Shown here one piece after another: positions 6,921 to 61,256 of a DNA stretch of 64,000 nt. The stretch lies in NCBI GenBank assembly GCA_963924555.1, contig OZ004586.1:6344501-6408500 (forward strand). The letters are read 5' to 3'. Position 1 is the stretch's first letter. Each line of letters opens with the position of its first letter. Made by a program: the position numbers and the translations under genes. Origin of the DNA: Crambe crambe. Lineage: Eukaryota; Porifera; Demospongiae; Poecilosclerida; Crambeidae. The notes beneath the pieces are model-generated. The model was not told where the DNA came from. It saw nothing but the letters and a program-made list of their open reading frames with translations, and ran no database searches.

Positions 6921-9900
6921 TGCAAATTACTTCAAATGATGCCAGTGGGAGAACTGAGAAAATGATAATAAAAATATGTGGATCTCAGGGAAGCAGTTTT
7001 CTTTCCTCAACTAATATCAGTGAGATATCCACATGTGTCTTCAGAAATGTAAGATTTACTTTTCCTATGATGTTTAGCTATAGCTACGTAGTTAGAATAA
7101 GTGAACTTTATTGGGACCAACAAAGTGTGTATCCTGAATTACAGAGGTTTTATATTTCTAGCTAGCTAGCTCTAATAATAATTTGAATTACAAGGCTTTG
7201 CATTTCAACGGGCTTTCTAGCTAGCTAGCTAGAAAGCCTGTTGAAATGCAACATGATGTTACACAATGGATTAGTGCATGACACTGTTTTCCACACAACT
7301 TTCCATCCATATTATAGGACTTAACTGTGATATACAAATTTCAAAACTTCCGTTCGTTTTATCTACCTATATCCATCACGTCTCCACAAACAGTACTTAT
7401 TTTCAGGTACGTAAGTGCATAATTGGCAGTGCCAATCATCAAGCCTCAGTATGGTGAAGAAATGGTTTACTGAGTATGTACGTCATACATATACGCACAC
7501 ACATAATCACTTCTCAAGATCTCCTCGTACTGTCTCTTTGTTACAGCAAGCAAATAATCATGATTCATTATGCATAAGTATATTTATTTTCATATGCCTG
7601 TCTAAGTTATGCATACAGTTTCTTTTGATTGCAGCATTGTTGTCCAACGGAGTGTGAAATATCAAAGCAGTGGCATATCATCACTTATCAGTGATCAATA
7701 CCAGGTCTATAATTATTCTTACTAGATACGTATGAGATCAGCAGGTGTTCACACCATGAGAATATAAAAATACATAGCTATATACGTATATAGTAAAGCA
7801 TACTGTAAATCTGTTTGAAGTTGCAATTTTTTAACTGCAGGAAAGCAACAACCAACTTCATGTGGGCACCTACAAGAAAGCAGCAAGGAGAGTAGCACGA
7901 GGTAAATACAGGAGATAATTGTGCAGAAATATGTTATTACATAGTTCCTTTTTATGGTACACTATTAGCTATAACTATGATTACTATCAGGTAGCAATTG
8001 TTGGTGTAGAGGTATTATAGCTAATAAAAAATTAAGTTTGAACGGTTTTATCAAAGCATGCAAAGCAATAATTCTATTTTGAATATAAAATTCTAGCTAT
8101 TTGGGTCTGTCAGATTTGGTACCTTCTTACAGCTGTTCCTGAGAACAGATACTTTCTGGTAGCTACCGGAAATACCATCTCAAGAGTTAGTCTTGATGGA
8201 CTGCGATACCAAGTCCTTGTCAGCAATCTTTCAGGTGCAGTTGCAGTGGATTATGATTATAGGTATGCATCAAATAATTAATCCAACTGACCACACCTAT
8301 TATCAACAGAAGAAATTTTTTCATTGACAGACTCGAACTTAAGCTACTCTTTTTTTACATTATGGTAGGAATGGCTTCATATTCTGGACAGATATATATA
8401 ATATTTCTAGTGGTTTTATTATGAGATCGAACTTAGATGGATCATCTGTGCTAAGATTGCCACTAAGATTATTCAGGCCAGGTTAGCCATGAGATAAGTC
8501 AAAACCCTATTTTACCCAGATGCATAAGTTTCAGTTATAACTTGAAATTTTAGATGGTCTTGCCTTCAATTGGCTGACGAATAGGCTATACTTCACAGAT
8601 GCACTAGCATCTATTGTGGGTGTGGTCGACTTTGTTACATTGAATGCCATTATTCTTTTCACAACTGGAGCAAATACACGACCTCGTGCTATAGTTTTGG
8701 ATCCATTTGCTGGGTAACTCAGGATGTATGTCAGTGTTAAAATATTGATATAATCCTGTTTCATAGTTTGATGTACTTTACTGACTGGGGCCGTGTGGGA
8801 CGCATCGAGAAAGCATCACTGACTGGAGCAAATAGAACTGTCATCCACAACACCAGCCTAGTCTGGCCCAATGCCCTCACCCTGGACATTCCAACACAGA
8901 CACTCTACTGGGCAGATGCTAGTCTGGACAAATTGGAGAAATCAAGTGTGGATGGACGAAACAGAGTTCTACTGGCTCAGCTAGGAATTGTCCATCCATT
9001 TGGCATTGTGTTTGCCAACAATACCCTGTATTTCACTGATGGATCAGACAACACCATCAGATACGTTAGTGCCAATGGAGGAGTTGTGAGGAGTCTGCAC
9101 TCTGTGACTGCATACTCCAGGAGGACCAACTCAACGATATTTGGAATTCAAATTGTTGGACCCCTTGAACAAGTTGCAAGTTAGTAGTCATGAAATTGAG
9201 TTGTAATTTCTATAGTGCACAATCAAGGATCCTACAGAGTATGCTCATAGTAACTTTCACTACTTTGTAGATAATGGGATGATAATTCCTGTGACACCTA
9301 GCTACATATCGAAATCCTTTGTGTACACTGTAGCTATAGCTATGTAGTATTAATATAGAGTGTATATTTTGCAATGCCGTTGGTCCTTGGTGTAGAGGTA
9401 TTATAGCTAAGAATACATGCATAAAAAATTAAGTTTCGAACAAAGCATGCATGGCATATGTAAAATATAACATTCTAGCTATTTGGCTATTAGGGTCTGT
9501 CAGATTTGGTACCTTCTTACAGGTGTTCCTGAGAACAGATACTTTCTGGTAGCTACCGGAAATGCCATCTCAAGAGTTAGTCTTGATGGACTGCGATACC
9601 AAGTCCTTGTCAGCAATCTTTCAAAGGCAGTTGCTGTGGATTATGATTATAGGTACACATCAAATAATTAATCCTAGGCAAGCAACTGACCGCACCTATT
9701 ATCAACAGAAGAAATTTCTTCATTGACAGATTTGAACTTTAGCTACTCTTTTTTACTTATGGTAGGAATGGCTTCATATTCTGGACGGATACTTCTAGTG
9801 GTTCTATAATGAGATCAAATTTAGATGGATCATCTGTGCTAAGAGTGCTAAGAGGATTAATCGGACCAGGTTAGTCATGAGATAAGTCAGATCCCTATCT

Positions 9901-11994
9901 TGCCCAGATGCATAAGTTTATTTTATACAGAGAATGCATAGTGATATCCTAAACCACATTACATGATTTCCCCATACAGTATAAAATAATCTAACTATTG
10001 AAAATTTTAGATGGCCTTGCCTTCAATTGGCTGACGAATAGGCTATACTTCACAGATCAAGTAGCATCTTTTGTGGGTGTGCTTGACTTTGTTGCATTAA
10101 ATGTCACAATTCTTTTTACGACTGGAGCAAATACACGACCTCGTGCTATAGTTTTGGATCCATTTGCTGGGTAACTCAGGATGTATGTCAGTGTTAAAAT
10201 ATTGATATAATCCTGCTTCATAGTTTAATGTACTTTACTGACTGGGGCCGTGTGGGACGCATCGAGAAAGCATCACTGACTGGAGCAAATCGGACTGTCA
10301 TCCACAACACCAGCCTAGTCTGGCCCAATGCCCTCACCCTGGATATTCCAACACAGACACTTTACTGGGCAGATGCTAATCTGGACAAAGTGGAGAAGTC
10401 TAATGTGGATGGACGAAACAGAGTTCTACTGGCTCAGCTAGGAGTTGTCCATCCATTTGGCATTGTGTTAGCCAACAATACCCTGTATTTCACTGATAGG
10501 TCAGACAACACCATCAGATACCTTAGTACCAGTGGAGGAGTTGTGAGGAGTCTGCACTCTGTGACTGCATACTCCAGGAGGACCAACTCAACGATATTTG
10601 GAATTCAAATTGTTGGACCCAATGAACAAGTTACAAGTTAGTAGTCATGAGTTATAATCTCTATAGTGTACAACCAAGGATCCTAAAGAGTATGCTCACA
10701 GTAACTTTCACTACTTTGTGCATTTGTTCATCCAGTCCCTGTAATGCTAATGCTTCTTGTACTGATTCTGATAATTTTATCTGTACCTGTAATAGCGGAT
10801 TCTCAGGAGATGGGTTAACTTGCCAAGGTATTTTAGCTATAGGAGGTGATGGGAAAAGGACACTCATAACATATGATAATTTTACCTGATCAATGAATAA
10901 TTCTATGACACCTACATATCCTTTATGTACACTGTAGCTATAATATTCATATAGATATATTCGATCAAATCCAACTGAAATTATAATTTGCCATGCTGTT
11001 GAAGTGCACCTTCAATGAGAAACAAGATTTAGCTTTGAAGTGCAGTTCTACTGACTTTATGATTACTATTTTCATTTTGTTGTTTCGTTTTGTTTGGCAT
11101 TTCTTAAAACAGAATTAGCATCCAAAGAGCCATAGTAGTGGAATGCAGAATCTGCTCAAGCACACTAAACACTTTGATTAATGTGTTCTCACTTATATCA
11201 TCCAGACATCAATGAGTGCGATTTCATGCATCCTTGCAATGGCAATGCCACATGTACTGATACACTGGGTTCCTTCATTTGCACATGCAACAATGGATTC
11301 ACAGGAGATGGAGTGACTTGTCAAAGTAAACACATTCTTGCTTCTTGTTGTGACTAATTTTTTATCTTTCCAATTTGGGCAGATATTAATGAGTGTGAAA
11401 TCATGAGTCCTTGTAGCATCAATGCTGTGTGTATTGACACTCATGGTTCATACACTTGTTCCTGCAATGCTGGATATAGAGAAAATGGATTCACTTGTGA
11501 AAGTAATACTATTCATAGTGTAATTCTGATCAGAAGTCAGATCTTTAATTTTGTTGCAGACATTAATGAGTGTGACTCCATGCATCCTTGCAGTGGCAAT
11601 GCCAATTGTACTGATACACTGGGTTCCTTCATTTGTACATGCAACAATGGATTCACAGGAGATGGATTGACCTGTCAAAGTACGTATTTACTTTCAGTTA
11701 CATTGTTATTCTTTCAGATATCAATCCAATCCTCGTCACAGCATGTAGCGACACCATGCAGTGACTACTGAAATTATAGCATTCAGTTGATAGCTCTATA
11801 ATTTTTTTCCTAAAGCAAACCAAAAACAACAACAACAACAACAACAAAAACAAAAAATAAACATATTTTTTCTCTGTGTAGGTAGGGAACTTCAAAGTAA
11901 CTCAGCATTCGTAACTACCATCTCTCCAGTGTCTGTATTGGCAATAGTGGTTGTCATCATGGCTCTATGTGAAGAAATGAAGCCATTACCCTGA
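6921..11994 (+). CDS. LRP-like YWTD-propeller/EGF receptor, copy 1 (5' partial, tail-truncated)
   Basis: Exons with GT-AG borders and consistent phases: 6,921-7,048; 7,318-7,406; 7,635-7,704; 7,841-7,901; 8,133-8,262; 8,369-8,481; 8,554-8,713; 8,767-9,179; 9,523-9,652; 9,766-9,869; 10,011-10,170; 10,224-10,636; 10,702-10,827; 11,206-11,325; 11,383-11,502; 11,560-11,679; 11,882-11,994. Exon 1, with the signal peptide, lies before the window. Two blocks of about 270 residues carry blade motifs such as FIFWTD, LYFTD, MYFTDWG and LYWAD, so each is one six-bladed LDLR class B propeller. Four EGF modules follow, the last three of the calcium-binding kind (xINEC). The last exon encodes only about 14 hydrophobic residues (VSVLAIVVVIMALC) then EEMKPLP and stop. 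Copy 2 has 42 more residues here. The product may be secreted, weakly anchored or unstable. Ligand unknown. Confidence 0.85.
7200..7249. repeat. 50-bp palindrome in a receptor intron (copy 1)
   Basis: GCATTTCAACGGGCTTTC, a TAGCTAGCTAGC centre, then the complementary arm ending GTTGAAATGC, with one mismatch. It is retained at the same intron position in copy 2. It could extrude as a cruciform or form an intronic RNA hairpin. Confidence 0.85.
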
Positions 11995-13687: not shown

Positions 13688-16600
13688 TTAAGTGTTAACA
13701 TACGCACCATAGCGATCAGGTGGATTCCTTAATCGGGAAGACCGACGAAGCGGTTCTCCAGCAGGGGGTGAAACCGGTGCAACAGGTGGAGGGTTGGCTG
13801 GATTGTCAACAGTAGGATGACTTGAGGTACCAGGTTGTTTTGGCAGAATGTCCAGTTCATTGTCTTGGTCACCTTGGTCAACAGTCTTGGTCTCAGCACT
13901 GCGGGCCCGAATCTGGTCAACATGTCGTCGGAATATTCTGTCATCTGCTAACCGGACTCTGTAAGAAACAGGACCACATACCTCCGAAATTTCTCCAGGT
14001 AACCATTTGGGATCGCTTGGTGAGCCTCGTACAAAAACCTTATCTCCACATTGAAAGATACGTTCCCGAGTTCCTCGGTTGTCATGCAGGACTTTCTGTG
14101 TCCCCTGGTGACGTCGAACTCGTGCACAAACATCTGGTTTGAGTAAATCAAGGTGGGATCGCAACTGTCGACCCATCAGCATCTCTGAAGGACTAACTCC
14201 AGTAGTGGTATGGGGAGTGATGCGATACTTGAAAAGGAAACGAGCGAGTTGAACTTCCATGGAATTTGAAGAAGACTTCTTTAAGGCTTCCTTCAAAACC
14301 TGCACAGCCCTTTCGGCCTGTCCATTAGAAGCTGGATGGTATGGTGAGGTTCTGACGTGGCGGATTCCATTCTTCTGGGTGAACTCGTGAAATTCCAAAC
14401 TTGTGAAAGGTGAACCATTATCCGAGACAATCACCTCTGGAAGGCCATGGACTGAAAACATGGAACGGAGTTTCTCGATGGTGTGGAATGAATTTGCAGA
14501 GGGTACAATGACCACCTCTAACCACTTTGAGTGTGAATCAATTACAACAAGGAGCATCTTCCCACGCACTGGACCTGCATAGTCAATATGTAGGCGGCTC
14601 CAAGGACGTCCAGGCCACTCCCACGGATGTAAAGGTGCCAGGGGCGGGGACTTTTGATGAAGTTGGCACTGGTAGCAATCTTTCACTTTCGCTTGTAAAT
14701 CTTCATCCAGGTTTGGCCACCACACAATTCCTCTTGCCAGGCTCTTCATTCGGCAGATACCAATGTGGCCCTCATGTAAGAGCTCAAGCACTCTCTCTCG
14801 ACCAGCTGGTGGTATCACCACTCGGCTTCCAATCAAAATACAGCCATCTTGTACTGATAGTTCTTGGCTCCGACGTTGATATGGGCGTAATTCAGGATCA
14901 TTCGTATGAGACCATCCCTTTTTCACCATGTCTCTAACTCTTGACATTTTTGGATCCCGGTTGGTCCATTCTCTGATGTGGGTGTCTGTGACGGGTGAAT
15001 TACGTAAGGTCTCAATCAGCAGAATCACGTCACCTGGTGGTGGTACTGTACTGGGGGATTCAGAGAGTGGTAACCGACTTAGAACATCGGCATTGGAATG
15101 TTCTTTCCCTGGCCTATACATCATGGTATAGTTGTATGCACCCAGTGTTAAAGCCCATCGTTGTATACGAGAGGAAGCCAATGGGGGTACTGCTCGGCCT
15201 TCCTTAAACAAGTGCTTCAGGGGCTTATGGTCTGAGTAAATGGTAAACTTCCGGCCCAAGAGATATTGGTTAAATTTCTTGACTCCAAAAATGATTGCTA
15301 ATCCCTCCTTATCTATTTGGGAGTACCTCTTTTCAGCAGGGGCCAGCGTCCTTGATGCGAACGCTATAGGCTTCTCCTCCCCATCTACCAGGTGGGACAG
15401 GACTGCTCCCACTCCATAGGGAGATGCATCACATGATAACAACAGTGGTTTCCCAGGGTCAAAGTGGACTAGTAAACACTTGGAAGTTAGCTGCTGCTTG
15501 GCTTCCTGAAAGGCATTCTGTTGTGGTTTGCCCCACTTCCACTTAACCCCATGCTGTAATAACTGATGAAGAGGTGCTAACAAGCTTGACAAATTAGGGA
15601 GGAACTTACAATAATAATTTACAACTCCCAAGAATGACCTCAGCTGTGAGATGTCTGTTGGTGCAGGAGCCTTTGTAATGGCACGGATTTTCTCCTCACT
15701 TGGTTGTAGACCAGCTGCACTAATTCTGTGTCCAAGATACTCCACCGATGGCAGCATGAAGGCACACTTTGCTTGTTTCAGCCTAAGTCCCGCTGCCTTC
15801 AATCTGCCAAGGACCTCATCTAAGTTTCGGAGATGATCTTCTTCACTTTTCCCAGTAACTAAGATGTCGTCAAGGTAAATTGACACATGAGGGAGACCTT
15901 GTAGAATACTCTCCATCATTCTTTGAAAGATGGACGGGGCTGAAGCCACTCCAAATGGTAGTCTGGTATACGTATACAGTCCTTTCTGGGTGTTAACTGC
16001 AACGTACTTTTGGGACTCTTCATCCAGTTTCACCTGGAGGTAAGCATGTGCCAGATCCAATTTGCTGAAGGTTTGGCCTCCGGACAGTGATGCAAACAAG
16101 TCCTCTATACGAGGGAGGGGGTAAGTATCCAGCTTGGCCACCTGATTCACAGTGAGCTTGTAGTCACCACAGATGCGGATGGAACCATCTGGCTTAACCA
16201 CAGGGACAATAGGGGTTGCCCACTCAGAGAACTGAATAGGTTTGATAACATTCAGGTCCACCAATCGTGTAAGTTCCTTCTCCACCTTCTCTCGAAGTGC
16301 GAACGGTACCAATCGTGGTCGGTAATATCGTGGAGGTTTGTCTTCATCGACGTGGATCTTGGCGGTGAACCCAGAAACTTCACCCAATTCCTCTCGAAAC
16401 ACCTCACCATGCTTCTTAAGGACTGCTTCCAATGTTGCTTTATCCTGTATTCTGTGGAGACTCCGCCAGTCAAACTGAAATTTTCCTAGCCAGTCCCTCC
16501 CCAACAAGCTAGGTCCATTTCCTTGTACTACGATCAAGTCCAGTTGATCTGTCTGGTCCTGGTACTTGACCTGTGCTGAAATATAACCCAGGGTCTCCAG

Positions 16601-17611
16601 TCGCTCACCAGTGTAAGTCTGAAGTTGGGCCGAAGTGGATTGTAACTCCGGAACTTGACCTTCTCGCTTGAGATTAAGGTAAGTATACTCGCTTATCAGG
16701 GAACGGGATGCTCCGGTATCCACTTCCAATGTCAGTTCCATATCATTCACAGTGACAACGGCTGTGATTGGTTTGTTATTTTTCCCAATGACTGTAAATA
16801 GTGAGTACTCCTCGCTTTCGGCAGCTTCCTTACTCTCTCCCACGTGATGTGTCTTGTGTGAAGTCGGTTTTCGCCGCTTCTGTTGATGTGGGTGTGTTTT
16901 ACTCCTACACACCCTTGCAAGGTGCCCCACCTTCTGACAGGTGTGGCACTTAGTGTTCTTGAATCGACAATCAGGAGCCTTGTGTTGGCCTCCACATCGA
17001 TAACAGGTTACTGCTGGGCTTTGTTGATGTTTCTGTTGGCGTGAGGGGTCCCTCTCACGGAGAGAGTGCACTGATGAATTTTGTGGCTTTTGCAAGTCCT
17101 TGGAACTTGCTTCTGCAGCTTCCCAAGCCTGGGCCATCTCTAAAGCTGTTTTGAACGTAAGTTCCTTCTCTGCTAACAGCTTCCGTTGAAGAGGGCCATT
17201 TCTTATCCCACAAACAAGGCGGTCACGTAGTAAATCATTCAGACTTGTGCCATAGTTGCAGTGTTGGGACAGCTTTCTGAGTTCGGAGACGTACGTCGAT
17301 ATGTTCTCTCCTTCCTTTTGATCTCGGCAGTTGAAGTGATAACGCTGGACTATTTCTGAAGGTTTTGGTTTGTAATGATTCTCTAGTAGAGTTACCAATT
17401 CGTCAAAACTTTTGTCTTTTGGGTCAACTGGTGCCAACAGGTTCTGAATAAGTTCAAATGTGTCTGATCCACTCGCACTTAGGAGTACTGCTTGCTTCTT
17501 CGCATCAGTCGTGATATCGTTTGCTATGAAATAGTACGAAAGTCTCTCTGCGTAGGACTTCCATTCTTCCTTTTTTGGATCGAATTCTGAAACATGTCCG
17601 TGTACTGCCAT
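13688..17611 (-). CDS. Gag-Pol polyprotein of the Ty3/Gypsy element
   Basis: One 1,307-codon frame. Order: Gag-like region (residues 1-195); two zinc knuckles near 203-235 (CYRCGG..., then CHTCQKVGHLARVC); aspartic protease with DTG near 298-300; reverse transcriptase with LPFG near 551 and active-site YLDD near 579; RNase H with SCDASPYG near 726 and a later YSDHKPL; integrase with an HHCC zinc module (HEGHIG ... CYQC, about 946-982) and D,D,E core near 1010, 1064 and 1100 (HIDYAG, SDNGSPF, GQAERA). The PR-RT-RH-IN order defines Ty3/Gypsy (Metaviridae-type). Gag and Pol are fused in one frame, so no frameshift is needed between them. No chromodomain is seen. The start is the first ATG after the primer-binding site. 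All key residues are present, so it looks active. Confidence 0.96.
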   Translation of the reverse strand: MAVHGHVSEFDPKKEEWKSYAERLSYYFIANDITTDAKKQAVLLSASGSDTFELIQNLLAPVDPKDKSFDELVTLLENHYKPKPSEIVQRYHFNCRDQKEGENISTYVSELRKLSQHCNYGTSLNDLLRDRLVCGIRNGPLQRKLLAEKELTFKTALEMAQAWEAAEASSKDLQKPQNSSVHSLRERDPSRQQKHQQSPAVTCYRCGGQHKAPDCRFKNTKCHTCQKVGHLARVCRSKTHPHQQKRRKPTSHKTHHVGESKEAAESEEYSLFTVIGKNNKPITAVVTVNDMELTLEVDTGASRSLISEYTYLNLKREGQVPELQSTSAQLQTYTGERLETLGYISAQVKYQDQTDQLDLIVVQGNGPSLLGRDWLGKFQFDWRSLHRIQDKATLEAVLKKHGEVFREELGEVSGFTAKIHVDEDKPPRYYRPRLVPFALREKVEKELTRLVDLNVIKPIQFSEWATPIVPVVKPDGSIRICGDYKLTVNQVAKLDTYPLPRIEDLFASLSGGQTFSKLDLAHAYLQVKLDEESQKYVAVNTQKGLYTYTRLPFGVASAPSIFQRMMESILQGLPHVSIYLDDILVTGKSEEDHLRNLDEVLGRLKAAGLRLKQAKCAFMLPSVEYLGHRISAAGLQPSEEKIRAITKAPAPTDISQLRSFLGVVNYYCKFLPNLSSLLAPLHQLLQHGVKWKWGKPQQNAFQEAKQQLTSKCLLVHFDPGKPLLLSCDASPYGVGAVLSHLVDGEEKPIAFASRTLAPAEKRYSQIDKEGLAIIFGVKKFNQYLLGRKFTIYSDHKPLKHLFKEGRAVPPLASSRIQRWALTLGAYNYTMMYRPGKEHSNADVLSRLPLSESPSTVPPPGDVILLIETLRNSPVTDTHIREWTNRDPKMSRVRDMVKKGWSHTNDPELRPYQRRSQELSVQDGCILIGSRVVIPPAGRERVLELLHEGHIGICRMKSLARGIVWWPNLDEDLQAKVKDCYQCQLHQKSPPLAPLHPWEWPGRPWSRLHIDYAGPVRGKMLLVVIDSHSKWLEVVIVPSANSFHTIEKLRSMFSVHGLPEVIVSDNGSPFTSLEFHEFTQKNGIRHVRTSPYHPASNGQAERAVQVLKEALKKSSSNSMEVQLARFLFKYRITPHTTTGVSPSEMLMGRQLRSHLDLLKPDVCARVRRHQGTQKVLHDNRGTRERIFQCGDKVFVRGSPSDPKWLPGEISEVCGPVSYRVRLADDRIFRRHVDQIRARSAETKTVDQGDQDNELDILPKQPGTSSHPTVDNPANPPPVAPVSPPAGEPLRRSSRLRNPPDRYGAYVNT

Positions 17612-17643
17612 AGCCCAGCTACTTCTTTATCCTCGTCGCCAGT

Positions 17644-24900: not shown

Positions 24901-27900
24901 GCTATACTTCACAGATGCACTAGCATCTATTGTGGGTGTGGTCGACTTTGTTACATTGAATGCCATTATTCTTTTCACAACTGGAGCAAATACACGACCT
25001 CGTGCTATAGTTTTGGATCCATTTGCTGGGTAACTCAGGATGTATGTCAGTGTTAAAATATTGATATAATCCTGTTTCATAGTTTAATGTACTTTACTGA
25101 CTTGGGCAGTGTGGGACGCATCGAGAAAGCATCACTGACTGGAGCAAATAGAACTGTCATCCACAACACCAGCCTAGTCTGGCCCAATGCCCTCACCCTG
25201 GACATTCCAACACAGACTCTCTACTGGGCAGATGCTAGTCTGGACAAAGTGGAAAAGTCTAATGTGGATGGACGAAACAGAGTTCTACTGGCTCAGCTAG
25301 GAATTGTCCATCCATTTGGCATTGTGTTTGCCAACAATACACTGTATTTCACTGATAGTTCAGACAACACCATCAGATACGTTAGTGCCAATGGAGGAGT
25401 TGTGAGGAGTCTGCACTCTGTGACTGCATACTCCAGGAGGACCAACTCAACGATATTTGGGATTCAAATTGTTGGACCCTATGAACAAGTTGCAAGTTAG
25501 TAGTCATGAAATTGAGTTGTAATCTCTATAGTGCACAACCAAGGATCCTAAAGAGTATGCTCATAGTAACTTTCACTACTTTGTAGATAATGGGATGATA
25601 ATTCCTGTGACACCTAGCTACATATCGGAATCCTTTGTGTACACTGTAGCTATAGCTATGTAGTATTAATATAGAGTGTATATTTTGCAATGCCGTTGGT
25701 CCTTGGTGTAGAGATATTATAGCTAAGAATACATGCATAAAAAATTAAGTTTCGAACAAAGCATGCGTGGCATATGTAAAATATAACATTCTAGCTGTTT
25801 GGCTATTAGGGTCTGTCAGATTTGGTACCTTCTTACAGCTGTTCCTGAGAACAGATACTTTCTGGTAGCTACCGGAAATACCATCTCAAGAGTTAGTCTT
25901 GATGGACTGCGATACCAAGTCCTTGTCAGCAATCTTTCAAATGCAGTTGCTGTGGATTATGATTATAGGTACACATCAAATAATTAATCCTAGGCAAGCA
26001 ACTGACCACACCTATTATCAACAGAAGAAATTTCTTCATTGACAGATTTGAACTTTAGCTACTCTTTTTACTTATGGTAGGAATGGCTTCATATTCTGGA
26101 CAGATACTTCTAGTGGTTTTATTATGAGATCAAATTTAGATGGATCATCTGTGCTAAGAGTGCTAAGAGGATTAATCAGACCAGGTTAGTCATGAGATAA
26201 GTCAGATCCCTATCTTGCCCAGGTGCATAAGTTTATTTTATACAGAGAATGCATAGTGATATCCTAAACCACATTACATGATTTCCCCATACAGTATAAA
26301 ATAATCTAACTATTGAAAATTTTAGATGGCCTTGCCTTCAATTGGCTGACGAATAGGCTATACTTCACAGATGCAAGAGCATCTATTGTGGGTGTGCTTG
26401 ACTTTGTTGCATTAAATGTCACAATTCTTTTCACGACTGGAGCAAATACACGACCTCGTGCTATAGTTTTGGATCCATTTGCTGGGTAACTCAGGATGTA
26501 TGTCAGTGTTAAAATATTGATATAATCCTGTTTCATAGTTTGATGTACTTTACTGACTTGGGCAGTGTGGGACGCATCGAGAAAGCATCACTGACTGGAG
26601 CAAATCGGACTGTCATCCACAACACCAGCCTAGTCTGGCCCAATGCCCTCACCCTGGATATTCCAACACAGACACTCTACTGGGCAGATGCTAGTCTGGA
26701 CAAAGTGGAGAAGTCTAATGTGGATGGACGAAACAGAGTTCTACTGGCTCAGCAAGGAGTTGTCCATCCATTTGGCATTGTGTTTGCCAACAATACCCTG
26801 TATTTCACTGATAGGTCAGACAACACCATCAGATACCTTAGTACCAGTGGAGGAGTTGTGAGGAGTCTGCACTCTGTGACTGCATACTCCAGCTCAACGA
26901 TATTTGGAATTCAAATTGTTGGACCCAATGAACAAGTTACAAGTTAGTAGTCATAAGTTATAATCTCTATAGTGTACAACCAAGGATCCTAAAGAGTATG
27001 CTTACAGTAACTTTCACTACTTTGTGCATTTGTTCATCCAGTCCCTGTAATGCTAATGCTTCTTGTACTGATTCTGATAATTTTATCTGTACCTGTAATA
27101 GCGGATTCTCAGGAGATGGGTTAACTTGCCAAGGTATTTTAGCTATAGGTGATGAAAAAAGGACACTCATAACATATAATAATTTTACCTGATCAATGAA
27201 TAATTCTATGACACCTACATATCCTTTATAGCTATAATATTCATATAGAGTGTATGTATATTCGATCAAATCCAACTGAAATTATAATTTGCCATGCTGT
27301 TGAAGTGCACCTTCAATGAGAAACAAGATTTAGCTTTGAAGTGCAGTTCTACTGACTTTATGATTACTATTTTCATTTTGTTGTTTCGTTTTGTTTGGCA
27401 TTTTTAAAAACAGAATTAGCATCCAAAGAGCCATAGTAGTGGAATGCAGAATCTGCTCAAGCACACTAAACACTTTGATTAATGTGTTCTCACTTATATC
27501 ATCCAGACATCAATGAATGCGATTTCATGCATCCTTGCAATGGCAATGCCACATGTACTGATACACTGGGTTCCTTCATTTGCACATGCAACAATGGATT
27601 CACAGGAGATGGAGTGACTTGTCAAAGTAAACACATTCTTGCTTCTTGTTGTGACTAATTTTTTATCTTTCCAACTTTGGCAGATATTAATGAGTGTGAA
27701 ATCATGAGTCCTTGTAGCATCAATGCTGTGTGTATTGACACTCATGGTTCATACACTTGTTCCTGCAATGCTGGATATAGAGAAAATGGATTCACTTGTG
27801 AAAGTAATACTATTCATATATACAGTATAGTACAGTGTAACTCTGATCAGAAGTCAGATCTTTAATTTTGTTGTAGACATCAATGAGTGTGACTCCATTC

Positions 27901-50155: not shown

Positions 50156-50625
50156 TGAGGCAAGGTTATTTGGTAAAGGGTCGTTCTCGACATCCTTAGC
50201 CTAGCCGGCCACGCCCCTAGAAAAAAGTATGCAAACAAGTGAGAGTAAAAACATTTCTTCTAAATAAAAGAGTGATATAGGCTTGAGTACATGACTATAA
50301 AAAGTACGGAAACAAGGTGCTGGTTCATAAGCTCTACAGAATTGACAAACCCTACAATTGACACAAACCCTACATCACTGATCCTTTTGGCTACACCTTG
50401 CAGCGATGTAGGGTTTATGTCAATTGTAGGGTTTGTCAATTCTGTAGAGCTTATGAAGTATATACCAGCACCTTGTTTCCGTACTTTTTATAGTCATGTA
50501 CTCAAGCCTACATCACTCTTTCGTTTAGAAGAAATGTTTTTACTCTCCCTGTTTGCATACTTTTTCAAGGGGCGTGGCTAAGGATGTCGATAACGACCCT
50601 TTACCAAATAAGCTTACCAAGCCTC
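50156..50625. mobile_element. Large foldback element, about 470 bp
   Basis: Arms of about 210 bp are near-perfect inverted copies: GGTAAAGGGTCGTT on the left, AACGACCCTTTACC on the right, with internal blocks such as CTTGAGTACATGACTATAAA and its complement. Centre near 50,385-50,410. No frame of note. It sits upstream of the cathepsin exons. Confidence 0.88.
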
Positions 50626-51709: not shown

Positions 51710-52334
51710 CTTAGATAATTAGACTACGCACACAGGATTGGAAACAGCTCACGTGCGCCCATTATGCTAATACAAATCGTCGCGGACGATCCGTGTTGCT
51801 ATGCGCGAAGGAAAATTGGAAATTTATTCCTTGTTTCTCGAGTATACTTTTCATGAAAGGAGAATAAACTGGTGAGTTTTAGCATCAAATAAAGGGCTAC
51901 TTTACAGAGTATGTTCCAGGGATGTGAAATGTGTTTCTTAAGTATAGTTAGTTTGCTCATAAAATAGTTTTCCATGAAGATTTTTATCACCCTAGCAACG
52001 GATAAAGTTTTTTTCTTCTTTCATTGCAAAGGCATAATTCCTGTGTCCTTTTAATGAAGTTTATGTTATTGAGTGATGCTTGCCATACGGAATGGTGTGC
52101 ATAATATATGTTTTTGTCCTGAATCTTTGATGCTTTCTGGCTTTTTCTGTGTTTGGAGGTGTATATTTTTGCTTTCTTTCACACAAAAGGCACTGTTGCA
52201 TGAGCAATGAAATTTTTCTAACTGATAAAGTTAGTGCTGCAGTTTGGAATAGCATCAATCCCATAAGCTGCAGTGACCAAAATTATAGCTAATGTACATG
52301 CTAACTTATCCACATTGATTTATTAGTTACAGCT

Positions 52335-52583
52335 ATGCCAAGGAGGAAAAAAAGTAAACTGTGTGTCAAAAAACATGGAAGTAAGAACATTCTCAAGGTG
52401 CCATTATCTTCAAGTCCTGCTTCTAGTATCAGTGATCTTTCAATCACCCTGGACAGACTTCCATCTAAATGGGTCAGATTGAAAGAGCCCAACCTCACCT
52501 TGGTGAAACTCTCAAAATGCCCAAATTCCACAGCAGTTTGTTCACTCTTTAGCATCAAAATTAAGCTAGTATATCAGCAGTAG
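52335..52583 (+). pseudogene. N-terminal exon of a transposase-like protein (family B)
   Basis: Starts MPRRKKSKLCVKKHG, a basic leader, and contains RLPSKWVRLKEPNLTLVKLS, which parallels LPQQWQTHVSDDITHFVKI in the inner element's transposase exon 2, including the spacing to a CxxxxLFSI / CQVSTLLSI block. No following exons are recognised, so this looks like the stub of a related gene. Confidence 0.5.
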
Positions 52584-52779
52584 AAACTATATAATTATAA
52601 AATTATAATACCTACATAATAATAGTCATAATAATTAATTTTATGATAATCTATTGAGGGTCTTAGTTGTCTTCCTTATGCCCTTGGTTTTCTGGGTCAA
52701 TTTCTTAGCTACTTGCCATTTTGAGCTAGCAAAAGCAAAGCTCGTGTGGTGATCCAAAGGTCCACTATCATTTCAATCA

Positions 52780-53165
52780 CCTTGCTCTCCTCTTCATCCC
52801 AATCCTCAGAAATTTCAGACTATTTTTGTACATTCCTTCTTCAATACTTTTCTTAATGTTATCAATGGGCTTTATCAAATGATTCTGAACTTCTTTCTCC
52901 ATCTCCACCATGAAACTATACATGGAGTTTGAAATGTGGAGTAATCTCCTATCGACCAAGTCTATATCCAATCCTCTGATTCTTCATCATCATCATAGTA
53001 ACAAATCATCAATATAACATCAAATTTTCTTTCAAGGGTGAGAGGAACTTTTTTAATCTCTTGTGCAGAGCCCTTGGGATGTACCCTGCTGCATACCGCA
53101 ATGCATTACTCTCTTCGTAAGTAATTACACACTCATAATCATGCTGGGAGGCGGAGCTGAGGTCA
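52780..53165 (-). pseudogene. Accessory-gene relative (family B), degraded
   Basis: Minus-strand pieces read ESNALRYAAGYIPRALHKRL near 53,080-53,120, then after stops DLVDRRLLHISNSMYSFMVE near 52,905-52,970. These match in order the NAVRYMSGYV and ELIDRGGLYQINDTVF motifs of the intact accessory protein at 57,350-58,596. At least two stops lie between them. Confidence 0.6.
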
Positions 53166-53819
53166 CTTGAAATAGGGCAATTATTAGGAATTACTCGTTC
53201 AAATAGCTAACACATCTGTAATTTTCTAGTACAGGAGGGGTGATTGCTATACCAGCTTGACAAAAAAGTCTTTTCAGATTTTCTGAAACTCTGTGGTGGT
53301 TCTAATTTTATGGTACTGCCCCCACATAATTCGTTGTGTTTTCTCTAAGGGATGAGGGTCAAGTAATTTTATTAGAAGCAATTCAACATTTCATAGCTTG
53401 AAGGATTTGTGCACCACTCAAGAGCTGCAGTAGCAATTTCTCGAACAGCAATATTGTGTGGATGAGAGAACATCTTAGTCTTCACAATTTGTTGCAAAAC
53501 TTGGACAATAATTCCACTAGGATCTATAGTTAAAGCAATTAAGCTCAATGAAGTGGTCATGTAAGCTTCAGTTAATAGCTAGCTAGCTAGGTCTCTAGCA
53601 CTGTAAATTAGCAGTAGCCAGCTAGCTGATAGAGCTAGCTAGATCATAGCTAGGTCTCTTAGCACTGGCTAGCCAATAACAACACAATTTTACCTTGTAA
53701 ATCAGGTTTTCTCCAGCTATACAAGCACTAACAAGCCACACACTTAGAGAAACCATAGATATTAGACACGGAACAGGATTGGAAACTTAATACTACCATA
53801 GATAATATAGATACTCCGT

Positions 53820-56800
53820 ATGGATATGAAACGCCCGCGAACACGGAATAGTATACGGAATTCCCCGGTACAATCACTGTCTCGCTTGACTACCAATGTT
53901 GCAAGCGGTGTCACTGCAGTTTTTCTTTTGCGGTTGCTTACTAAATTGTATTGTGGTATAGTTCACGTGCGAAAATTAATGGATGATAATCAGGTAAGTA
54001 GTACCTTAAAAAAATTAGTGGAAATAACCAACCAGTCAGCAATGGGAACTGCTACAATATTGTATCAACACTAAAAACAACTTTTGGTTAGATTTACTGA
54101 AGACCAATGCACTGCATCAGGAAAAAAAGTAATACAGAGGCAACAATACATTATGTTAGACCGGGAGAATGTGAAAGTTAATGTCAAATAGCATTGTAGA
54201 GCTGAATTTGAGCATATTAATGTAGTCCATTTTGGTTAGATTTTCTTCAGGACTACGCATTGTTAACATTGAGACTACATGCCATGCAACAGTTTAAATA
54301 TTGGTACACCGGGAGAATCTATCATTTTTTCCTTCTAACTGATATGGCTAGTTCTAGAAGCCTTTAAAGTAGAGGACTCTCATACTTTCAGCCTATAGCC
54401 AGTGGCAATAATAGTTGTAATTGGACATTTCATGCATTTCAATGGCTATTTTTAAATGATGTACAATCATAGCAAAGAAAAAAGGGTTTCCCATATCATA
54501 AGAAGCGGAAGAAAGGAGCAAGATGGAAGTTGGACAAAAGAAAAAATAGAAGAAGAGAAAGCCATTGTGGACACAAAGAAAATATCCCCCCAATATATAT
54601 CTCTCAAGTGACACTCACACTGCCACAGCAATGGCAGACTCATGTGAGTGATGATATCACTCATTTTGTCAAGATTGACAGTGGGAAAAAAGAAGAAATG
54701 TGCCAAGTATCAACCTTACTTTCCATCCATCTAGATGGTACTTGGAGTGTATTTTTTGTCGGACATAAAATTCCTAAAACAAATATGAGTTTAGGAAAAT
54801 TTCCCAATAATATTACTTCAATTGATGTGATTAACCAACTCATTTTTGTTTTGAATCATGCTTCATTATGTCCTGGAAATTCAGAAGAAAAATATATTGA
54901 TGTGTGCAAGAGAAGAAAGGATGAAAAAATTAGTGGAGAGAGAGGGTTTGGTGAGACCGTGGGCTACATAGATGTCAGAAATTCACATGGTAAGAACATA
55001 ACTATAGAAAAGTTTAACTTTTTGAGTGATTGGTGTGCATGTTAGAAACTGTGCGAAGTGTCAACTGTGAACTGATGTGTGAGGAGTTCACAATGTGTAA
55101 GTCATGTGTACATATCTCAGAGGCACACTCAGAAAAGCTGCACTCCGCCAACAGAAGCCAAATGATGGATGTATATTAGCTCATAGCCATACCACTTACC
55201 ATAACCTCACATCTGAGGAAAAGGATGCAAGGCTGAGAAATATTCATCACTCTCTAGCTGTGATGAAACAAAGGAATAAAACGTTAAATTCTAAAGTGGC
55301 ACACATGATTGATGATCAAAGCATCCATCTTGAAGAATCTGATATCAGTGATACTCTTTCACTGATTTCAGAAGTGAGTCCTATTGTTGAATCTAGATTT
55401 CCATCATATAAACCTCAAAAGATTTTCTGGGATCAGCAAATTTCATATAATGCTCTGAAGGACAAACGACTGATGAGGTAGCATCCACTCATCATTCGAT
55501 TTGCTCTCAACTTAAAATACCTATCAACTTCTGCATATAAGGCGATTCGCCAGAGTGGCATTATACACTTACCAAGTGAGCGAACCTTATCCGATTACAC
55601 ACACTGGTCAACTCCCAATAGTGGTGTTAATCTTGAGTTTATTGAGGAGTTCGCTAGAATGATGGGTGATATACCTAGTGCTCAACACTGCTGCACCTTG
55701 AGCATGGATGAGATGAAAATAAAACGCGGGTTAGTATTTGATAAGCATAATGGTAAATTGGTGGGATTTGTGGATCTTGGTGGTGTCAATCGAGATATTG
55801 AATTGCTGTTGAGTGGGGAAGATTCAAGTACAAAATTTGCTGACCAGACACTAGTATTCATGGCACGAGCTGTTTTTAAACCATCTTTAACTATGCCAAT
55901 AGCCCACTATTTCAGCTTGAATCTCAAAGGTATGATCTGCATGCATGGCTTAAGTAAAGATCACCATGTATACACACAGTGATAATGATGTACATATATT
56001 ATATGTGACACAGGTGAGAAACTATTTCCAATGGTGTGGGAGGTTATTCAATCTTTGGAAATGTACAACATTCCTGTGGTCTCACTTACAAGTGATGGTG
56101 CTAAGCCCAACAGGCGATTTTACAGAATGTGTCAGACAGAAAAGCATGGGAAAAAGCTACCATACAAAACATTCAATCGATTCTGTCAAGGTCGTGAGCT
56201 ATTTTTTATCTGTGATCCTCCTCACCTCTTAAAAACAGCTAGAAATTGCTTTAGCAATTCTTTTGCTCATTCTTGTAGTCGGACGATGCAGGTAAATAAT
56301 CATGCCTTAGATGAATTAGCTATAATGAGAATGATAATGCTGTATGACAGAAAAATGGCCAGCAAATTTCATGGAAGTGGATAGAGCACCTTTACCTCAC
56401 AGAATCAACAACAGACACTCCTGGGGTTAAGATTTGCCCTAAGCTCTCTAGGGATCATGTGTGGCTGAATGCTTTTTCAAGAATGAAAGTATACTTGGCA
56501 GCTCAAGTTAGCTACCACTTATACTGGTAAAGCCTTACATTATAATAGTGCATTATTTTTTATAATAGGTAATGAGTGAAACAGTAGCATGTGGTTTAGA
56601 GATGTTGAACAGGGATAATACTCGGGAAACTAGATTATTCATCAGAATGATCGACAAATTTTTTGATTGCCTAAACGTAAAGGGCCCCTTAGTGGGACTG
56701 CTGAAACAAAAAGAAAACCTGAAGCCTTACACAAGTTGCAGAGATGAAAGGTTTGAAGTAAGTACCAAACAATGCAAACCTGGACCAATTAGCTAAGATA

Positions 56801-57297
56801 TTCCTTTGTGATACAGTGGCTGAAGAAAGACTTCCTAAATTATCTCAGAGAATGGGAGGATGAGGTAAAGCTACTCCCTATGAGCAGAAGGCTTCAATTA
56901 AAGTGCTGCTTAAGCAGAGAAACTTTGGAGGGGATCAGAATTACTGGTAAGAACTACAATGACTAAGCTTCTCTACTATAAAGTGGCTTTTATACTTACA
57001 GTACATTCATTCACTGAATTGGGACCGAAACTTGTGAAATTGGAAGGAGTTAAATATTTACTCAGTGAGGTATTTTCACAAGATCCTCTTGAGAGGTATT
57101 TCAGCAGACAGCGCCACCGGGGAGGAAGCTGTGATAACCCCACAGTTCATCAAGTGCCTTACAATGCAGCCACATTAGTTCAACAAAGATCAATATATAG
57201 GGATCTGAAAACAATGAATGTTGAGCCTGAAGAAGTCAACATAGAGGTTGCTTCACAGCCACTGATGAAAAAAAGGCCACGGCGTAGAAGTAGCTAA
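53820..57297 (+). pseudogene. P-element/THAP9-like transposase gene, two lesions
   Basis: Eight exons in consistent phase: 53,820-53,993; 54,473-54,989; 55,046-55,929; 56,014-56,291; 56,351-56,506; 56,569-56,757; 56,817-56,946; 57,002-57,297. Family signatures: SMDEMKIKRGLVFDKHNGK and GFVDLGG, with acidic residues as in the first catalytic segment of P-type RNase H folds; MPIAHYF; NIPVVSLTSDGAKPNRRFY; ICDPPHLLKTARN; KNGQQISWKWIEHL; SQDPLERYFSRQRHRGG near the C-terminus. No C2CH THAP finger is seen; instead the N-terminus is strongly basic. Exon 3 needs a one-base shift near 55,115 (its length is also off by one) and has an in-frame TAG at 55,480. The element is therefore probably not autonomous now. 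The start codon lies inside the left TIR and is uncertain. Confidence 0.8.
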
Positions 57298-57349
57298 TGA
57301 AAGTAATGAAAAATCACTGTATAAATTTACATCATGATAATAAATGAAA

Positions 57350-58596
57350 TCATGCTTCCATTTCCTGTTGTAATGACTTTCTGGTCCCCTTCTTGCACCT
57401 CCTCTCAAAGTTCATTGTCCACCCTTTGGCGAATGCATTGGCACGTACATTTATCCATAAGTCCATGATGTTTGAAAGTAATTCCAAACTATATTTTTCA
57501 TATATCGGTGGGAAATTATCTGCTATTTCTTCCCATGTATCCATTATTTTCTTTGTATTAAATGCTTCCTCACGAATAACTGATATTATGTTTACACCTG
57601 TTTCCATATGAGATATACTTAAGTGCCTTCGAGTTACAATTTCTATTCCTTCCATTAGTTTGAATACAGTATCATTAATTTGATACAATCCACCACGATC
57701 AATTAACTCCAGCCATAGAGTGCTATACTCTGCCACAGAATTAGGGTTCCCAGGCTGTTCACATGCTTTCATTTTTTCAAGTGTGTCTACAAAGAGTTTG
57801 TGCTTGGCCACAATTTTTGGATTTTTGGGCGAACGTCGATATTTTTTAAGTAGTTTTACTGCCACATAACCTGACATGTATCGGACAGCATTACTTTCAT
57901 ATATCGTAAGTGACATATTTCTTTCAGGACCTTGGTGATGTTTCAGTAATTCTGCAGAATTCTTAATGAGTTTCTTCATTCCTCTATCTAACAATAGTTG
58001 TAAAGATAGTTCATACTCCTTCAGGTCTACAGCAAGTACATTGGATGTGATAAAAACTTTCCATGTCTGTCTAATGTCTTCCCTGGCACGCATTTTATGA
58101 AATGCAGTCCACATAGCAGATTGTGCAAGGGAAGGAAGTTTGTGTTTCCTTCCAGTACAGAGGCATTTGCTGAGCTCTGTTAAAATATGAACTGCAAGAT
58201 GATGATAGTCACAGTCCTTGATTTGGTCTAATAGCTCTCCAACCTTTTGACCTCTTGGAGACCGTTTGATAATTTGCTCTGTGGACAAATCAGAAATCAG
58301 AGTTGCAAAAAACCCTGAAAAGCCCAACCCCCCCAGAGATCCTTCAGGCAATGACTCTACAGCTGGAGTAACTTGTGATGCCACTGAATGTCCCTATATA
58401 ATTATAATGAATCAACAATGATTAAGGTTCACTACTAGAAAGCTACGTGCTTTTAAAAAACTACACTAACATCTTTCTTAGTAACCAAAATCATTGTTTT
58501 GCATCCATCATCTTCTACTTCCTCTTCATACAGGCTCTCATCACTAGAATCAGTATTATCACTCAATTCTGAGTTCATTTTGTTTCTATTCTGCAT
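57350..58596 (-). CDS. Accessory protein of the inner P-like transposon (GYV/DRGGL family)
   Basis: Two minus-strand exons, 58,596-58,471 and 58,393-57,350, joined at phase 0 by a GT-AG intron, give about 389 residues without a lesion. The N-terminus is acidic (DNTDSSDESLYEEEVEDDG). The body has SNAVRYMSGYVAVKLLKKYR and LWLELIDRGGLYQINDTVF, then a C-terminal block NAFAKGWTMNFERRCKKG. Degraded relatives lie in family A (58,928-59,729) and family B (52,780-53,165). Its stop is 53 bp from that of the transposase, tail to tail. The GYV...RGGL pattern recalls the C-terminal part of some P/THAP-type transposases, so it may act with the transposase. That is inference; no catalytic motif is evident. 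Confidence 0.75.
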
Positions 58597-58927
58597 TTTG
58601 TTGAATAACTATAATCATTCACTGCATGCATATCATGCAGTACTTACCAGTCTTATGCAGCATAAAGAGCTCTTAGCACATGAGCAGGTATTATTATTAT
58701 TGTTGCTGTTATTACCATGGAAGCCCCGTAATTTCAATTAGGCGCGCATACTAGTCCGCATCATGCGCGAGACAATGATTGAATTTGCCGTAGAAGGATA
58801 TCCGGAAGCGTTTCACATCCATACGGAGTATCTATAATTATCTATGATACTACCATGCGCGTGCTATCCGTGTTTGCCGGGAAATATTGGCGCGAGATAT
58901 GAATGCATAGTTACTGCGTAGTTACGA

Positions 58928-59729
58928 ATGGCTTCTTCAAGGTCCTTGAGTTCTGCCAAAGATATCAGAGCGGATATTCAAGAAAAAGGTATTGGTAGCT
59001 TAGTATTAGCTAGGCTGGAGTGTTTCCATGTTGTGCTTTTGTATAGACTACTACAAATTAATGAGAGATTCTGTATCTCAAGTTTTGAGAGATGACGAGT
59101 TTAGTCTTCCTCTTCAGGCAGCTATGGATGCCCGTTCTTGCACAGAGAGTTTTATGGAATGGATGTCAAAACATGACAATTTGTTATCAGCAACTGAATT
59201 TGCAAAGCAATTAGCTAGTAGCCTTTGTGGATGCTTTTCTACATCTAAAAGTGCACGAATTTCAAGAGAGAAGATGTGGGAGAGCTACTATAAACTATGT
59301 TCTTCTGATGAATTCAAGGATAAATGGGTCAAAATAATAGGCAGTAAAGCGACTCCTATATTCTACCAATTTATCACAGACAAAAATAATGATGGAAGCT
59401 CTAATCAAGTGTCATTATACAGTGGAGCAGTCAGCAGCAGTCACTCCTGTAACACCATTGGACTATAAAGAAATGAATGCCCTGCGGTACATGGGAGGCT
59501 ATGTTATTCGATCCCTCAAAGAAAAGATATTAAGGTCATCACATCCACACAAAAAAGAGATGATGCTTTGTTTAAAAGAAATGGAAGAAGATTTTGGTGA
59601 GTTTTTATGAGGTCATTTTTAAAACAATGATTAATCTTAATTGTATCTTAATTATGAAGGAAGTGCTCACCCTTCAGATGAGTGGACCGATTTGGTAGAC
59701 AGAGGAGGGCTTATATATGTCAGTGACAC
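58928..59729 (+). pseudogene. Accessory-gene relative (family A), frameshifted and truncated
   Basis: Exons 58,928-58,988 (MASSRSLSSAKDIRADIQEK), 59,047-59,596 and 59,660-59,729. Contains EFAKQLASSLCGCFSTSKSA, EMNALRYMGGYVIRSLKEKI and EWTDLVDRGGLIYVSDT, matching the intact minus-strand protein of the inner element. Exon 2 is one base too long, with a shift near 59,385 (AAAAATAATG). The gene is cut off at 59,730 by a left-type TIR. Confidence 0.7.
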
Positions 59730-60120
59730 CATAGATAGTAGACACGGAACAGGATTGGAAACTTAATACTACCATGCGCGTGCTATCCGTGTTTGCTGGG
59801 AAATTTTGGCGCGAGATATGAATGCATAGTTACCACATAATAGTTAAGAATGAGTTCTGAAAAAGATATCAGAGCAGATATTAGTCTAGTAGCTTAATAT
59901 TAGCTGGACTAGAGTGTTTCCATGTTGTGCTTTTATAAAAATAATAAAATTTAATATGAGACTAGATCTAGCTAGATAGTACAAATCTATGAGAGATTCA
60001 GTATCTCAAGTTTTGAAAGATGAAGAGTTTAGTCTTCTTCTCCAGCCATCTATAGATGCCCGTTCTTGTGCAGAGAGCTTTGTGGAGTGGATAATAAAAC
60101 ATGATAATGCAAATAAATAA
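59730..60120 (+). repeat. Second copy of the family A 5' end
   Basis: Begins with a left TIR (CATAGATAGTAGACACGGAA) and repeats the 5' part of the element: first 53,754-53,796, then 58,847 to about 59,190, with indels. It includes a diverged accessory exon 2 start (DSVSQVL to SVSQVLKDEEF). Flanks do not show a target duplication with either right TIR, so it may be a tandem duplication rather than a separate insertion. Confidence 0.7.
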
Positions 60121-60683
60121 TAGAAATATAATAATAATAACTATTTAACCCATGTAGTTTAACACTGCATTAAAAGAAAACCAACAGCTATGAATCAATA
60201 TAGCATATATCATCCGATAGACAAACTATTATACTACTAAAAGATACCAAATACTTGACTTCTAAATTTATGTGAGTCCTGTTCTAGTCCCACAAATTGG
60301 TAGGCCTATAAAATCTTTAGCAACATATCCTACACCAAAAACAATTACTACACTCTTTATTTCAGTCTATTCCAGTAAGAAACTTTACCTTCCAAACTTC
60401 TATAGGATAAAATTGCTAGAAAAGTACTTGCACTCGTAGCTCTAGTCCCACAAAGTCTGTACCGCTCTTCCTCAGAAAATGTATTGCGACAATAGGGCTA
60501 AATTTTCTATGGTTACAACGCGGATAGCACGCGCGAAATGTATTAGCTTAATGGGCGTGACGTCACATGACATAGGCAGTTTCCAATCCTGTTCCGTGTC
60601 TAATATCTATGGAGAAACAAACCACACACTGTAAACAGCTGCAATAATTTGGCGCAACGCGCATGGTCCGCGCGCGAATAATT
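60121..60683. other. Right part of family A element and short family B tail
   Basis: AT-rich, no frame. Family A right TIR at about 60,579-60,611, then GAGAAAC and about 65 bp with a CG-rich patch before the family B right TIR. Confidence 0.5.
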
Positions 60684-61223
60684 GTTTCCAATCCTGTGTA
60701 CGTAGTCTAATTATCTAAGCTTTAACCCTTTATGGTTGTTGCTGGAACTTCCAAATAATTCCAATATATATATATATAGTTATATATGCACAAGACTATG
60801 ACCATTAAACAAGTTATAACAGAATTCATCCTACATAAGAAAGTCATTTAATCCAGTAGTTCATACCTCAATGCATGCAATTTATACTTTCTAAAACTTT
60901 AATGCTATCTCCTAACTAGAGAAAATGTGACACAAAACATTTCAGCCATGAAGTAAGGTCACTAAACAGTCCTCCAACTCTCGTATGGTTACTGCTTTCT
61001 CACCTGCAATAAGAAAAGATGATCGTGGTAAGTTCCGTGCATGTTTCACGGACAGTCCTGGCCTAGCAAACTGTAGCACGCTTTGCAAAAACCACAAAAC
61101 CACAAGACAGAGCGTCTACAATATAGTCTACAATATCGCCTAAAACCATGGCAAAGGAGCGAAAATGCTATGGCAAGGATTATCCGTTTACAATTATATT
61201 AGGCCTATGGGCGCACATGACGA

Positions 61224-61256
61224 GTTTCCAATCCTGTTCCGTGTAATATATCTATG
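61224..61256. repeat. Orphan right TIR of family A
   Basis: GTTTCCAATCCTGTTCCGTG then TAATATATCTATG, a right-type end without a partner sharing its flank GTAGAAC. Confidence 0.7.

Follow-up and report, generated by a model that had tools for sequence, protein, structure and literature searches.

The 64,000-nucleotide (nt) window analysed here (Crambe crambe, contig OZ004586.1, positions 6,344,501 to 6,408,500 of the forward strand) contains three nested P-like transposons, A, B and C, and analysis of these together with their relatives across the 143-Mb assembly points to a group of P-superfamily-like cut-and-paste transposons whose transposase is probably made of two subunits, encoded by two convergent genes inside a single pair of terminal inverted repeats (TIRs). 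P elements, the relatives of THAP9, are the textbook single-gene eukaryotic transposon. The elements described here carry two conserved genes in fixed convergent order, which share TIRs and target-site duplications (TSDs) and have diverged in a correlated manner; the frame of the transposase gene (gene 1) lacks the C-terminal domain (CTD) of P transposase, and the opposite-strand gene (gene 2) has the CTD fold and matches the CTD profile. The original prediction, a two-gene P-like element with a "split transposase or helper protein", was supported, and the structure and profile evidence favours the split transposase.

Pairing of the two genes was counted in the sponge's own assembly, and all counts of gene 2 and of the exons encoding the N- and C-terminal parts of the RNase H domain (RNase H N and C) refer to the matches listed and are lower bounds. 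With one query, gene 2 gave at least 118 matches, and 55 of the 118 listed were open over at least 300 codons with no stop within the match, excluding chance occurrence of the frame; the RNase H N exon gave at least 153 matches. An initial count of 112 merged gene-2 places found 78 with a transposase match within 6 kb; in 76 of these 78, gene 2 was downstream of the transposase match and in the opposite orientation. A wider query set, taking in 12 of 135 L045-related gene-2 matches, gave 145 gene-2 places and 144 RNase H C exons, among which 103 neighbour pairs were found within 1.5 kb, 102 of them convergent; the sole non-convergent case (C13:390067) adjoins a gene 2 already in convergent arrangement with a different partner, at C13:388265. 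Gene 2 is thus not found mostly outside such elements, since 102 of the 145 places have a convergent transposase exon within 1.5 kb. The stop codons of the two genes are separated by a median of 65 nt (range 23 to 428). No fused arrangement was present among the 103 pairs, and no fused protein was found at E ≤ 1 among 5,781 candidates, in a search with sensitivity limited to shared 5-residue words.

P-type TIRs enclosing both genes were found at nine of the 15 loci searched for terminal repeats; at the other six none were found. The TIRs mostly start with CA, and with CT in the family of element A and locus L045; a 397-nt inverted repeat in L037 was considered as a TIR pair and dismissed, not being of P type. 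Nine of 11 elements were flanked by identical 7-bp sequences, and none by 8-bp ones, and the eight elements with both genes and a perfect TSD measured 4.9–5.5 kb. In element C, an RNase H domain split by a GTP-binding insertion was recognised on separate exons, with PF21787 and PF21789 over their cut-offs and PF21788 just under (E = 1.9e-4, 22.3 bits, cut-off 24.8); PF21787 exceeded its cut-off in at least 150 genome matches. Catalytic positions were retained throughout (first D in 15/15, D of ADGA in 12/12, E of QDPLE in 19/19), and we take these to correspond to the Drosophila catalytic residues, in part on the basis of a weak alignment to 6p5a_A. A helix-turn-helix (HTH) domain preceding RNase H matched PF12017 in L044 (23.5 bits, cut-off 23), the profile being below cut-off or absent in the other scanned copies. 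No THAP domain was detected in nine scanned transposase proteins or pieces, and none of 30 THAP matches lay within 10 kb of any of the 144 listed RNase H C exons, although an intron-interrupted THAP domain could escape such scans; one RNase H N match has a THAP match at a distance of 8.8 kb. The Drosophila P protein continues for about 220 residues beyond its catalytic glutamate. Here the transposase stop follows that glutamate by 65–79 codons at 19 of 21 loci, and by 17 and 35 codons at the other two, most tails carrying a basic PLPKR-like motif, and with a stop at most 79 codons away none of the 21 frames contains a CTD.

Copies are nearly identical within families, and 456 of 595 between-family pairs are saturated at synonymous sites (comparison of nonsynonymous and synonymous rates, dN/dS, without duplicate loci L001, L029 and L041 and without pairs shorter than 150 codons), and for these two reasons conservation by codon position was used in place of dN/dS. 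Using 17 loci for gene 2, and 14 and 16 for two transposase exons (L033, L036, L049 and multi-piece matches left out), codon position 2 showed higher conservation than position 3 in 136 of 136 gene-2 pairs from 17 families (mean identity 0.55 against 0.33), and in 91 of 91 and 120 of 120 between-family pairs for the two exons, in protein-level alignments that favour positions 1 and 2. Protein distances of gene 2 and transposase across 20 families were correlated (Mantel r = 0.82, 0 of 10,000 permutations), and seven of 17 tree splits, three large groups among them, were common to both genes. Judged from these sequence comparisons, the two genes have for the most part travelled together, and recent capture of gene 2 from the host was dismissed because the distances correlate.

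Such a pairing may also be that of a transposase with its regulator, gene 2 then encoding a free CTD-like protein which would compete with the transposase or cap it and so repress or tune transposition. A truncated form of the P protein serves as repressor in Drosophila (available portion of PMC7776569), a form that lacks its C-terminal third and is therefore not a free CTD, and gene 2 is not listed near 41 of the 144 listed transposase exons. Against a regulator stand the 21 CTD-less catalytic frames, since a repressor would leave the function of the missing CTD unfilled, and the retention of gene 2 beside the transposase in 102 convergent pairs with both genes conserved, some pairs being near-identical and therefore recently copied. 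We consider a purely regulatory gene 2 unlikely.

Structure comparison of the predicted model of element C gene 2 matched residues 160–332 to the CTD of Drosophila P transposase, the modelled fold being that of DmTNP residues 617–734, and gene-2 models from two families only 20% identical both ranked the same P-transposase chain first. The independent CTD profile PF12596 gave 12 matches genome-wide, all sub-threshold and all 12 within gene-2 copies. These models and matches favour the gene 2 protein as the counterpart of the P transposase CTD that is absent from the transposase frame, and because of these two features together the split transposase is preferred. The N-terminal half of gene 2 is predicted to form an extra helical domain of unrecognised fold, with no recognised relative in sequence or structure comparisons, and a viral structure library gave no match at E ≤ 0.001. 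An unrelated helper, such as a chromatin or targeting factor with a helical half that merely resembles the CTD fold, would be compatible with this N-terminal half, with the sub-threshold sequence similarity, and with the readiness of helical bundles to match by chance; it is harder to reconcile with the shared first-ranked chain of two such diverged models and with the confinement of PF12596 to gene 2, and is in our view improbable.

Several results weigh against the split transposase. In sequence, gene 2 resembles the P CTD only weakly: with Foldseek alone there was no gene-2 match at E ≤ 0.001, a PDB sequence search with gene 2 gave no P transposase match, and PF12596 never reached its cut-off in gene 2, its 12 matches being largely copies of one family and therefore standing for two or more independent families rather than twelve. 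Precomputed THAP9_C (PF22824) labels on nine of 76 gene-2 relatives were not reproduced in a scan of four of the nine; THAP9_C was not among the 25 families listed, of 29, for 50 relatives that included all nine labelled ones; and a genome search with THAP9_C found nothing, either in this genome or in the control genomes. PF22824 did not exceed its cut-off in gene 2. The second gene-2 model (predicted local distance difference test, pLDDT, 73.5) matched P at 8.6, against 8.3 for an unrelated row, in a comparison where helical folds may score up to about 13 by chance. The two trees share only the seven of 17 splits given above, and only 7 of 20 families have the same nearest neighbour for both proteins. 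Among the matches listed, a partner within 1.5 kb is lacking for 41 of the 144 transposase exons and for 42 of the 145 gene-2 places.

That gene 2 is an ordinary C-terminal transposase exon, joined by trans-splicing, or an artefact of assembly or nesting is very improbable. Nested and partly decayed elements in the window could mislead, but the same layout recurs on many contigs, at 102 places, and across 20 diverged families, so that an artefact of the nested window was dismissed. Gene 1 ends in a C-terminal tail of its own, with a stop at near-constant position, and a downstream exon was dismissed because gene 2 runs on the other strand and, in element C, starts with a predicted ATG exon of its own.

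Under the split-transposase reading, gene 1 would encode the catalytic subunit, with HTH, a split RNase H domain with GTP-binding insertion, DDE residues and a short basic tail, and gene 2 would encode a helical protein whose C-terminal half is the CTD counterpart, preceded by the extra helical domain. The two proteins would assemble in trans on the transposon ends, with the CTD supplied in trans by gene 2, and the RNase H domain would cut and join, leaving 7-bp duplications. According to the available portion of PMC7776569, the Drosophila CTD is entirely helical and connected to RNase H by a disordered linker, is positioned between RNase H and the GTP-binding domain of another subunit, and contacts both transposon and target DNA, with a basic helix reaching toward the target; a domain already so loosely tethered, and acting on a neighbouring subunit, could be cut loose. 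We infer physical assembly of the two proteins, a requirement for both in transposition, and descent from a fused ancestor that underwent splitting and inversion. If this is correct, the elements would be a natural split P, conserved in 20 diverged families of one genome, in which the CTD can work as a free subunit, and would offer a direct test of the CTD's role; annotation seeking one transposase gene may miss half of such elements.

In the window, element C (53797–58846) lies within element B (53754–60611), and B within element A (51710–60719). Element C, 5,050 bp long with termini CATAGATAAT..., is placed in the left terminal region of B, and is flanked by a perfect 7-bp TSD, ATACTAC, at 53790–53796 and 58847–58853. 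Its transposase gene (forward strand, multi-exon, predicted, approximate limits 54473–57297) includes the RNase H N part (PF21787, 55482–55928, E = 7.4e-16), the GTP-binding insertion, and the RNase H C part with the catalytic glutamate in QDPLE (PF21789, 57007–57195, E = 1e-6), and a basic tail ends the protein shortly past that glutamate. The transposase is interrupted by an in-frame stop that separates two matching stretches, and a family-C sister copy on contig C11 is open at this point (open frame of 316 against 166 aa). Gene 2 of element C is on the reverse strand, with a predicted splice joining exon 1 (58471–58596, 42 aa, acidic, ATG start) to exon 2 (57350–58393, 347 aa open, all-helical model) through an intron whose GT and AG ends were read directly from the sequence. 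An intact two-exon gene 2 beside a broken transposase, as predicted for this inner family, was therefore confirmed.

Element B has identical 31-bp terminal repeats and a perfect 7-bp TSD, GAGAAAC, and has two interruptions, one being element C and the other a second B-like left end at 59730. Its gene 2 is broken, with three profile pieces at 59064–59733 on the forward strand, and its transposase was not found, the only RNase H N and C stretches in the window being those of element C. Extra B-type ends, left-like at 59730 inside B gene 2 and right at 61256, were noted as a family inserting into itself. Element A, an old copy of the L045 family with termini CTTAGATAATTAGACTACG..., had no matching TSD. 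It retains a transposase-like 5' exon remnant (52335–52583, forward strand), with the same protein start as L045, and a gene-2 remnant (52730–53575, reverse strand; C9:6397518-6398075 and 6397230-6397325, converted to window coordinates), the longer piece of which shares 68% identity with the gene 2 of L045, intact at 342 aa. The two ordered gene-2 motifs originally predicted for all three families were recovered in C (NAVRYMSGYV and LIDRGGL) and in the broken copy of B (NALRYMGGYV and LVDRGGL), but the second has decayed in A (LVDRRLL). The opposite-strand arrangement, predicted for B and C, holds for C and also for A; for B, no transposase was found in the window with which its gene 2 could be compared. 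L045-related gene-2 copies occur on many contigs, many of them decayed with several stops each and six intact and 99–100% identical to L045, and the decayed copies look like the remains of an old element that was amplified and then died.

Outside the window, eight RNase H C exons of equal score (112–118 aa frames; C1:2386441, C8:4448073, C13:390067, C14:1082647, C19:2314770, C19:2535608, C21:739268 and C21:3420349) lack a listed gene 2 of their own within 1.5 kb; seven of these are among the 41 unpaired exons and one is the exception C13:390067, and all eight are probably copies of an L050-family element that carries an internal deletion and was amplified. At locus L035, a 455-aa open frame (1608–2972) was observed whose gene 2 is nearly identical to that of L050; no transposase was found in the 10-kb locus, and the frame had no Pfam match at E ≤ 0.1. 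The stretch before gene 2 presumably resembles a RecQ-type helicase motif (AILPTGFGK), and gene 2 here is probably a truncated copy. The only second-species contig found, L056 (3,981 bases, filed in a Nitrosopumilus metagenome-assembled genome), carries a transposase that likewise stops a short way past RNase H C, in a basic tail; gene 2 was not found on this contig, and the other-strand open reading frame that follows the transposase resembles, we presume, a retroelement integrase. Gene 2 has 75 other relatives in the protein database, and viral contigs and plasmid records gave no matches. The THAP genes of the assembly indicate an animal host, and relatives filed under names of symbiont-type microbes (P0128 and L056) are in keeping with a sponge. 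Clear gene pairs were found in one genome only.

Elsewhere in the window, foldback-like nested inverted repeats occur at 50159–50618 (92 nt at 93%, 57 nt at 96% and 48 nt at 90%), and a 1,312-aa open frame at 13691–17626 (reverse strand) starts with what we take to be a Copia-type retrotransposon polyprotein, a resemblance judged on its first 70 residues. Four very similar open frames of 144–147 aa (forward strand; 8741–9181, 10198–10638, 25057–25497 and 26513–26944) presumably resemble low-density lipoprotein (LDL)-receptor YWTD repeats, as of a duplicated receptor-like gene. Scans of the window for Rfam families (gathering scores) and tRNAs found nothing.

Compared with known systems, the elements resemble P, THAP9 and Pdre in their HTH, the RNase H domain split by a GTP-binding insertion, the DDE residues, the predicted CTD fold, and TIRs mostly starting with CA. 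P and THAP9, as described in the available portions of PMC7776569 and PMC10983969, are single polypeptides that include the CTD, with an N-terminal THAP domain and an 8-bp TSD, whereas here the putative CTD is a separate opposite-strand gene that also encodes an extra helical domain, TSDs measure 7 bp, and no THAP was found; because neither a THAP domain nor a fused CTD was found, we term the elements P-like relatives, not canonical members. Galileo, a P-superfamily element of Drosophila, shares the 7-bp TSD, present in most of its copies with consensus GTANTAC (PMC4168063, available portion), to which two of our nine TSDs fit at six of seven positions and the other seven at three to five; it differs in having long TIRs, and THAP and catalytic core in one protein (residues 14–93 and 251–884; same source). 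No paper on a split or two-gene P element was found among those listed in searches of open-licence literature, and the available portion of PMC10027918, on sponges and P elements, holds nothing on split P elements. The closest parallel in gene order is with RAG1L-RAG2L transposons, in which a catalytic gene and a partner gene are invariably convergent, tail to tail, inside TIRs and TSDs (PMC7204232, available portion), and the same convergent arrangement within one TIR pair was found here. The RAG-like TSD is 5 bp and ours 7 bp, our catalytic gene is P-type, with a partner that matches a P transposase domain and not a Kelch-type RAG2; RAG families did not turn up in Pfam scans, in which the catalytic gene matched TNP-like families, and no dedicated RAG model search was made. 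On balance we lean, by a little, towards a THAP-less sister lineage of P with an obligate two-subunit transposase, in which an RNase H/GTPase protein and a CTD protein from converging genes would act in trans on the ends, as a parallel to RAG1-RAG2 that arose independently by relocation of a domain to the opposite strand, and in which the close converging 3' ends may allow self-limitation via antisense RNA. The split P would then be a second case of a convergent two-gene transposase, beside RAG.
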